A stretch of DNA of 30,166 bases from Ruminococcus sp. UBA3767 (GTDB lineage: Bacteria; Bacillota; Clostridia; Oscillospirales; Ruminococcaceae), in assembly GCA_002371625.1 (NCBI GenBank), contig DFFV01000042.1:1-30166 (forward strand), given 5' to 3'. This document shows positions 19,909 to 21,140 of the stretch, one piece after another (positions within the stretch are counted from its first letter, which is position 1; the number at the start of each line of letters is the position of its first letter). The notes beneath the pieces were generated by a model. It was not told the origin of the DNA. It saw nothing but the letters and a program-made list of their open reading frames with translations, and did no database searches. A program made the translations under genes and the position numbers.

Positions 19909-19943
19909 AGTATGACCTCCATAAAATAATATTTACAGAGCGC

Positions 19944-19971
19944 AAAAAAAGAACCCATCGTCACCGACAGG
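19944..19971 (-). terminator. Riboswitch-controlled terminator
   Basis: Hairpin CCTGTCG (19971-19965), GTGA loop, CGATGGG (19960-19954), then TTCTTTTTTT. The competing antiterminator pairs 20004-19991 with 19975-19963 (13 pairs, one bulge). It uses both the P1 3' strand and the terminator 5' strand, so a folded P1 should allow termination (off switch). Confidence 0.8.
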
Positions 19972-19994
19972 AACACTTTTGATGAAAATATGTT

Positions 19995-20081
19995 ACCTAT
20001 CGGTCAAGCATTAGCACCTTACCCTCTCGGGCAGGTTGCTGTGCGGTCACAGGGCTTGTCCCTCACGCACTCTGTATAGGT
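19995..20081 (-). ncRNA. S-box (SAM-I clan) riboswitch aptamer lacking P4
   Basis: Read on the minus strand. P1 is ACCTAT (20081-20076) with ATAGGT (20000-19995). P2 is GTGCG (20070-20066) with CGCAC (20045-20041). A K-turn-like bulge has tandem G-A pairs (20064/20047 and 20063/20048). P2b is GGG/CCC (20062-20060, 20054-20052). The conserved GCAACC follows (20039-20034), then P3 with a GAGA loop (20028-20025), then GGTGCTAA (20018-20011). The P2b loop CAAG (20058-20055) can pair with CTTG (20008-20005), the S-box pseudoknot; the usual CTGG/CCAG pair is replaced by a matching one. The P4 hairpin of SAM-I is absent. The class is SAM-I or a SAM-I/IV-type variant. Ligand binding is inferred from the conserved core. 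Confidence 0.8.
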
Positions 20082-20097
20082 GTCTTACGACACTTTT

Positions 20098-20126
20098 ATA
20101 TTATCAGAAAAAAGCACGAATGTCAA
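20098..20126 (-). promoter_or_regulatory. Promoter of the riboswitch and 103-aa gene
   Basis: Minus strand: TTGACA (20126-20121), a 17-nt spacer, TAATAT (20103-20098), with an extended -10 TG. The transcript should start near 20091, opening with a 5' hairpin, GTGTC-GTAA-GACAC, just before the aptamer. Confidence 0.85.
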
Positions 20127-20228: not shown

Positions 20229-21140
20229 ATGAAAGGACCATTCGGACGAGACGGTTTTCTTGGAGAAATGGACAAATGGTGGCTGTACAACAAGATGCGT
20301 GAAGAGCAAGAGCAGAAAGAAAATGACGATTTCGATTATCACGATGATGACTTTGAATATTATAATGATATCCCCGAATATGATTATAGCGATTTTGATG
20401 AAGACGCCAACGAGACTAGGATATGGTATAAACTCCTTAGAACCGATCCCGAATACAGAGACATAATGACTGAGGAACAGTGGGATGAGATCTGTTCTAT
20501 TGGCACAGAAGAATCCAAAAAGATGGATGATGCTCTGCTGTCAGATCCGGACGCTATTGAAAAATGGATAGCCGAGCATACAGACGATGAAGCTACCCTT
20601 AAAGAGCGTAAAGAGCGAAATGAAAAACTGATAGCGTATTACAAGGCAGAATCAGAAGCCGCTAAAAAGGCTTATAACGACATGAAGTCCAAAGAAGAAC
20701 TAAAAGAAAAAGATGCCAAAAGTGACAACAAGCAGACATATCCACGGATAGTTGTAAACTGGGGTGCATTGAAGATACTGGCTGTCATTTGCATAGTTTG
20801 TCTTATAATAATCTGTGTATTTAGTACACTGGCAGAGGCGAAAAGGCAAAGATATGAGAGAAAACTCAAAGAAGAGGTAGAAGCACGAACTGCCAATACT
20901 ACTACCATCACAAAAGAGACCACGCAAAATGTGGTACTAACCACGACTTCACAAGAGACCACCACTGCAAAGAAAACCACTACATACAAAAAGGTCACCA
21001 CCAAAAAGAAGACCACTACCAAAAAAGACAAGTACAACGTATACGATTATAAAGACCCCGAGGATTTCTACGAGGACAACTACAATGATTTCTGGGACTA
21101 CGAAGATGCCGAGGATTACTATCGTGAAAAAACAAGATAA
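20229..21140 (+). CDS. Single-pass membrane protein with acidic and Thr/Lys-rich regions
   Basis: A 303-aa protein I do not recognise. Residues 30-62 are an acidic, aromatic stretch (DDFDYHDDDFEYY type). Residues 63-170 are charged and probably helical, with a Lys/Glu-rich coiled-coil-like part at 120-165. One transmembrane helix spans about 180-201. A low-complexity Thr/Lys-rich linker (220-268) follows, then a very acidic, Tyr/Trp-rich tail (269-300) with repeated ED-F/Y-Y units. The lack of a signal peptide and the basic KRQRYERK after the helix make topology uncertain. The ATG follows GGGAGGTG closely. Own promoter and terminator. Confidence 0.85.
   Translation: MKGPFGRDGFLGEMDKWWLYNKMREEQEQKENDDFDYHDDDFEYYNDIPEYDYSDFDEDANETRIWYKLLRTDPEYRDIMTEEQWDEICSIGTEESKKMDDALLSDPDAIEKWIAEHTDDEATLKERKERNEKLIAYYKAESEAAKKAYNDMKSKEELKEKDAKSDNKQTYPRIVVNWGALKILAVICIVCLIIICVFSTLAEAKRQRYERKLKEEVEARTANTTTITKETTQNVVLTTTSQETTTAKKTTTYKKVTTKKKTTTKKDKYNVYDYKDPEDFYEDNYNDFWDYEDAEDYYREKTR

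Follow-up and report, generated by a model that had tools for sequence, protein, structure and literature searches.

A SAM-I riboswitch variant lacking P4, with two candidate expression platforms, upstream of an unnamed protein family of Clostridia and their phages

Which gene would an S-adenosylmethionine (SAM) riboswitch control when the protein encoded behind it belongs to no known methionine pathway, and by what steps would it do so? This question is raised by a minus-strand leader in a 30,166-nucleotide stretch of Ruminococcus sp. UBA3767 (contig DFFV01000042.1; the whole stretch is referred to here as the window). A first-pass annotation, made from the letters alone, had read the leader as an S-box relative without the P4 arm, controlling an orphan gene for a 103-aa protein through a transcription terminator.

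A SAM-I aptamer without P4 and its client family

The aptamer at positions 19994-20082 of the minus strand matches the SAM-I family RF00162 with 62.3 bits (E 2.1e-12; gathering threshold 44.4), and RF00162 is the only RNA family to reach its gathering score in the 30-kb window (cmscan). The alignment spans model positions 1-108 and includes P1, P2a, P2b, P3, and the loop pseudoknot, but the P4 stretch is absent, with 18 model positions facing a single base. In P1, as placed by the RF00162 alignment and by folding, the 5′ strand ACCUAU (20081-20076) pairs with the 3′ strand AUAGGU (20000-19995), which is also part of the antiterminator discussed below. The P4 arm of the four-way junction was found neither in this alignment nor in that of 55 relatives, where the pseudoknot strand is separated from P1 by only 4 alignment columns (5 nt in three sequences, by eye), versus 20-33 nt at P4-bearing metK loci, mostly with a visible CGG...CCG arm (42 loci checked). 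The proposed loss of P4 was thus borne out, and the RNA is filed as a variant of SAM-I rather than as a standard member of it. Other classes of the SAM clan share its core, and SAM-IV likewise lacks the P4 of SAM-I according to the accessible part of PMC6890682; scoring nevertheless sets the window RNA apart from them, since the SAM-I/IV model (RF01725) stopped at 33.2 bits (cut-off 41.1) and the SAM-IV model (RF00634) gave no match at E<=1. Membership in both classes was therefore dropped. The metagenome-assembled genome holding the window (84% complete) contains two SAM-I matches, namely the window copy and an 88-bit copy with P4.

Upstream of the aptamer, a candidate sigma-70-type promoter (TTGACA-17-TAATAT, 20126-20098) agrees with the consensus at 10 of 12 positions, this consensus match being its sole basis. 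A small hairpin, GUGUC-GUAA-GACAC, occupies the 5′ end of the leader (20093-20080) and overlaps the 5′ strand of P1.

The regulated open reading frame (19908-19597, minus strand) encodes 103 amino acids. A search with the single protein sequence returned one cluster, in keeping with the orphan reading. Using tblastn, however, members were located in six of 297 genomes of the same taxonomic family, its own included, and a profile built from these six matched 985 protein clusters; readings of the gene as an orphan or as confined to a single genome were consequently abandoned in favor of a large unnamed family that carries the same RNA in most loci examined. Thirty members scanned against Pfam, NCBIfam, and PHROGs gave no convincing family match (best E-values 0.0043 for Pfam SH3_15, in two members; 0.021 for PHROGs; and 0.035 for NCBIfam, over the 30 members), in agreement with the earlier view that the client is not a known methionine gene. 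Among 67 named genome loci, the hosts are Clostridia, including Oscillospiraceae, Ruminococcus, Lachnospiraceae, and Caproiciproducens, with some record titles giving just Bacillota or Eubacteriales. A plasmid search with one family member (P0010) gave no match. Architectural variants were also observed: a 208-aa protein (L177, reverse strand) fuses the family domain to an N-terminal part of unassigned homology, and two proteins of ~205 aa (L038 and L051) appear to be tandem duplicates of the domain.

Association between the switch and the family is extensive. RF00162 was found upstream of four of the first five diverged homologues, all four reading as P4-less with a CAAG/CUUG pseudoknot. Of the 67 genome loci, 55 have a same-strand match within 1.5 kb upstream of the family gene; one of the 55 (L066) is weak and doubtful, at 33 bits and 698 nt away, and the matches at L049 and L067 (57.6 and 59.2 bits) are true ones. 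The 12 misses comprise four genes at contig ends (L032, L056, L074, and L086), two loci that resemble decayed remnants by eye (L035 and L053), and six with enough upstream sequence but no recognizable switch (L027, L037, L057, L061, L083, and L084). Over the 63 genomes searched, RF00162 gave 128 matches, two of them without sequence and six left unclassed by the script, with L047 and L048 set as P4-less by eye. The two forms mostly precede different genes: 61 of 72 P4-less matches lie ahead of a family gene, ten ahead of other or no clear genes, and one ahead of metK, whereas all 48 matches classed as P4-bearing lie ahead of metK.

Core conservation and the candidate ligand

Covariation was measured in 55 sequences, obtained from a set of 59 leaders by excluding two with a long P3 (by script) and L058 and L106 (by hand). 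Changes on both sides were observed in 13 pairs, versus 6.3 in shuffles, and none of 500 shuffles reached this value. The pseudoknot, which the first-pass annotation had described as changed on both sides, is formed in the window by CAAG in the P2b loop (20058-20055) and CUUG (CTTG in the DNA; 20008-20005); it is paired in 100% of alignment cells, two of the 55 sequences have changes in both of its strands, and two of its four pairs show such two-sided changes. Two sequences that are not in the alignment have other forms, L170 with CAGG/CCUG and L068 with AGAC/GUCU. The RNA is real, and its core is conserved far beyond chance. In P3, columns 52-69 hold G.U in 27 sequences, A.C in 16, G-C in 10, and A-U and G.A in one each, a composition that suggests a conserved wobble.

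The pocket is kept as well. Columns A6, U7, A10-G13, C46, U74, and G75 are invariant in all 55 sequences, A47 is kept in 53, and A48 in 54; from the SAM-I structure, we take these columns to be the ones that contact SAM. One P4-less copy (L180; 54.9 bits, one genome) lies ahead of a metK gene whose product was confirmed as an S-AdoMet synthetase, which supports SAM as the ligand and is the best indication that the P4-less form would still read SAM. Four loci (L175, L176, L178, and L182) carry a second P4-less SAM-I copy with a CAGCC/GGCUG pseudoknot, 1.5-2.7 kb from the first and with no family gene behind it.

Could the P4-less form instead sense another ligand, such as SAH, MTA, or a polyamine, in the manner of the spermidine variants of SAM-I? 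Such variants on the SAM-I scaffold do exist, as described in the available text of PMC10853860, and, apart from the single metK, the client genes seen here are not SAM biosynthesis genes. As defined in the same text, the spermidine class retains four stems but carries changes in J1/2 and in the internal loop of P3; the window RNA does the reverse, keeping the pocket (intact in 53-55 of the 55 sequences) and losing a stem, so that it does not fall under that definition. Together with the copy ahead of metK, this makes a change of ligand quite improbable, and SAM is retained as the putative effector below.

Termination and ribosome access as candidate expression platforms

Downstream of the aptamer, the strand ACCGAUAGGUAAC (20004-19992), which includes the P1 3′ strand, is predicted by folding to pair with GUUCCUGUCGGU (19974-19963) through one bulge. 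The latter strand overlaps the 5′ arm of an intrinsic terminator (19971-19944) with a stem at 19971-19954 and a run of seven T residues at 19950-19944. The antiterminator proposed earlier, sharing the 3′ strand of P1 and blocking a U-tailed terminator, was therefore recovered. Across 59 family leaders (kept from 103 once near-duplicates were removed), a terminator-like hairpin was identified in 49, and the P1 3′ strand is complementary to a downstream stretch at z<-2 in 44. Six leaders of 120-129 nt (L034, L046, L052, L062, L077, and L081) show neither a terminator-like hairpin nor antiterminator complementarity beyond z -2, and the terminator scan also failed in four leaders of 147-159 nt.

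A second set of pairings involves the opposite side of the aptamer. Element A, ACAGAGUGCG (20075-20066), comprises the end of the P1 strand, J1/2, and the P2 5′ strand, and it can pair with element B, CGCUCUGUAAA (19942-19932), located beyond the terminator. B can alternatively pair with the Shine-Dalgarno region UUUAUGGAGG (19925-19916), in which UUUAUGGAG forms 9 bp with CUCUGUAAA of B and includes the GGAG of the Shine-Dalgarno sequence (19920-19916). The resulting hairpin (19940-19917) is separate from the terminator, which ends at 19944. In the family leaders, B mostly ends 21-30 nt ahead of the start codon.

We conclude that the leader is probably a P4-less SAM-I OFF switch with two serial expression platforms, one for each strand of the P1/P2 region, and the gene seems, as far as its sequence tells, to be shut first at transcription and again at ribosome binding. 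Each strand of P1 would power its own OFF step. With SAM bound, P1 and P2 would be held, the P1 3′ strand could not build the antiterminator, and the terminator would form as a consequence. In transcripts that escape, A would stay within P1/P2, leaving B to fold onto the Shine-Dalgarno region and block translation. With SAM absent, the antiterminator would take the P1 3′ strand, and B, once transcribed, would pair with A, the 5′ strand now released, so that the ribosome site would open. Since B is present in read-through RNA only, A:B pairing would also dismantle the aptamer and lock the message ON. Folding of the window's read-through RNA gave a structure of -64.6 kcal/mol that contains A:B and the antiterminator. 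Enforcing P1/P2 gave -52.3 kcal/mol, with B on the Shine-Dalgarno region and the terminator formed; this gap would have to be covered, presumably while the RNA is still being transcribed, by SAM and the pseudoknot, neither of which the fold model includes.

The comparative support for A:B was evaluated with B confined to the sequence between P1 and the Shine-Dalgarno region (a wider B gave 52/59, with the L036 match there being a terminator arm) and with shuffles, for A:B as for B and the Shine-Dalgarno region, that preserve base counts only. A:B exceeds shuffled sequences at z<-2 in 54 of 59 leaders (window z -4.4; mean -19.0 kcal/mol, versus -9.3 for shuffles) and is absent in five (L007, L058, L085, L102, and L103). 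Shortening A to its first 15 nt omits the purines able to pair with the T run, and 46 of 59 leaders still reach z<-2. Single covarying cases were seen, with GAGUAUGC matched to GCAUACUC in L011/L098. In the same genomes, the leaders of P4-bearing SAM-I/metK served as controls (39 for A:B, 10 of 49 having been dropped on re-anchoring); only six of the 39 reach z<-2, and a tail hairpin at z<-2 occurs in six of 48 metK leaders versus 34 of 59 family leaders.

An ordinary S-box acting through its terminator alone, with the Shine-Dalgarno hairpin and the A:B match arising as by-products of a U/C-rich spacer, would account for the terminator-like hairpins in 49 of the 59 leaders. It is also favored by how often the Shine-Dalgarno sequence would find an upstream partner by chance, in ~37 of 59 leaders as against the 51 observed. 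Partner specificity argues against it. When partners were permuted among leaders, the own partner was better in all 2,000 trials, both for A:B (-19.0 versus -16.5) and for B with the Shine-Dalgarno region (-12.3 versus -8.5), so that 0 of 2,000 permutations reached the own value in either case. The metK controls show no such preference for B with the Shine-Dalgarno region (1,532 of 2,000 permutations reach the own value) but slightly favor their own A:B partners (-10.3 versus -9.6; reached by 18 of 2,000), indicating that relatedness or composition accounts for part of the A:B permutation result; in addition, A is purine-rich like the Shine-Dalgarno sequence, and part of A:B could thus follow from the pairing of B with that sequence. 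The A:B signal is register-specific, a further point against the terminator-only account: in the 47 leaders with the CTCT motif that the fixed-register test required (12 of 59 being excluded), own partners form 4.13 of 7 pairs versus 3.76 for permuted ones, a value reached by none of 2,000 permutations, whereas 275 and 668 of 2,000 reach the own value after shifts by one and two positions. Moreover, the six short leaders without a terminator all retain A:B (z -3.8 to -5.1). On this evidence, a terminator-only switch is unlikely.

Minimum free energy (MFE) folds, which are thermodynamic and leave out ligand and pseudoknot, contain A:B in 39 of the 59 full leaders, with the Shine-Dalgarno sequence essentially free in only 21 of these; in the terminator-less L062 and L081, the fold lacks A:B and the Shine-Dalgarno sequence is paired instead. 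The A:B helix might alternatively serve mRNA stability by closing the 5′ end rather than ribosome access, since the predicted ON state has A:B closing the leader near that end. B nevertheless mostly ends 21-30 nt ahead of the start codon, and besides A it can pair, in a partner-specific manner, with the Shine-Dalgarno region, making a stabilizing role very unlikely.

The proposed arrangement of two serial OFF steps would differ from the known designs compared here in how the steps are fed. The SAM-I class shares with the window RNA its P1, P2a/b, P3, loop pseudoknot, SAM pocket, and terminator OFF logic; the P4 loss and a predicted Shine-Dalgarno platform worked by the 5′ strand are what set the window RNA apart. 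Dual platforms, in which one switch can act on both transcription and translation, have been described (Barrick and Breaker 2007, PMC2258182); in the part of that paper available to us, the ribosome site lies inside the 3′ arm of the terminator. No such overlap was found in the window, where the terminator stem ends at 19954, ahead of the Shine-Dalgarno sequence at 19920-19916, and the two hairpins would be fed by different P1 strands. The SAM-I riboswitch of Xanthomonas campestris, in the accessible text of PMC7270179, acts mainly on translation and has an anti-Shine-Dalgarno element, to which uncharged initiator tRNA binds; here, the aptamer's own 5′ strand would take that place. The term antiterminator is absent from the same text. 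Neither a P4-less SAM-I class nor the two-strand arrangement appears in the available portions of PMC2258182, PMC6890682, PMC7270179, PMC10853860, PMC9004378, and PMC10907184, and neither the P4-less form nor the client family was recognized in titles and opening lines of abstracts of the papers that searches of the open-licence PMC literature listed. If the proposed mechanism is true, a SAM-I aptamer can naturally lose P4 across an entire client family, and a single switching helix can use its two strands to control separate decisions in series.

Phages, other clients, and neighboring genes

The same gene-switch unit occurs in viruses. Twenty-two virus records with a family gene were counted (11 earlier virus loci lie largely on the same contigs and were not added), and 21 of them contain exactly one RF00162 match in the whole record, on the same strand as the gene and ahead of it, at 40-100 nt in 20 and at 959 nt in L107; in the remaining record (L108), the family gene lies at the contig edge. 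Riboswitches are described as rare in phages in the accessible part of PMC9004378. A protein-independent pattern scan of viral contigs located 15 P4-less switches, 11 of them at a family gene, five of the 15 contigs being known before from the protein search. Behind the other four switches lie unnamed genes, one of which (L203) resembles by eye the gene behind a P4-less switch in a genome (L173); the two proteins, of 147 and 141 aa, respectively, possibly represent a second client family. At L186, a P4-less SAM-I match lies upstream of an HD-domain protein (Pfam HD_4). Among seven P4-less leaders with other clients, both pairings of B are found in four (L173, L200, L203, and L206), A:B only in L180, and neither in L186 and L213.

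Set against these results, the first-pass annotation was supported on the P4-less S-box, the pseudoknot, the OFF logic, and the type of client; it was mistaken about the orphan gene and overlooked the Shine-Dalgarno platform, the phages, and the P4-less copy ahead of metK. The comparisons presented here show the match to the RNA family, its covariation, its association with the gene, and complementarity beyond that of controls; from them, we infer the ligand, the switching, and a role for the client as a ~100-aa protein that would be made at SAM shortage in Clostridia and their phages. If so, a large set of unnamed host and phage proteins joins the SAM regulon.

The gene neighborhoods contain SAM-consuming and SAM-producing enzymes. 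Of 93 loci, which are partly related, 11 have a C5 DNA methyltransferase near the family gene, 8 an N6/N4 DNA methyltransferase, and 6 a SAM synthetase; one member of each enzyme type was identified. In Ruminococcus phage NatCom_28274, the family gene (annotated as hypothetical) is next but one to an annotated DNA methyltransferase. The N domain of SAM synthetase exceeds its cut-off in 10 of the 22 virus records with the gene, whereas the C domain does so in just 4 (7 at E<=0.001), implying that six of the ten viral synthetases are diverged, short forms. One such synthetase was matched by 133 of 50,697 phage records, a count obtained by another method and not strictly comparable with 10/22. 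We treat a role of the family in methylation or in the supply of SAM as a lead rather than as a finding. On the basis of the viral synthetase N domains and of the family gene's position beside DNA methyltransferases in some of the virus records, it is conceivable, although we hold this reading tentatively, that P4-less SAM-I RNAs form a subclass working as a portable device with two checkpoints, common to phages and Clostridia, in which the P1 3′ strand would govern termination and the 5′ strand both ribosome access and dismantling of the aptamer after commitment, turning on several unnamed small-protein families at SAM shortage, possibly in a contest over SAM for DNA methylation.

Other features of the window were also recorded. 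The divergent neighbor of the leader (20229-21140, plus strand) encodes an acidic protein of 303 aa with a membrane-like segment, and L004, L077, and L079 have blastp relatives of it in the vicinity of their family genes, suggesting that it may be a recurrent partner. Downstream of the client gene, the minus strand at 19543-16057 encodes in a row an acyltransferase, a glycosyltransferase 8, and a glycosyltransferase 8-acyltransferase fusion, with a promoter-like site ahead of them at 19537-19509. Farther along the same strand (12527-6159), there is a repetitive surface-type protein of 2122 aa with PQTGN near its C-terminus, as read by eye.
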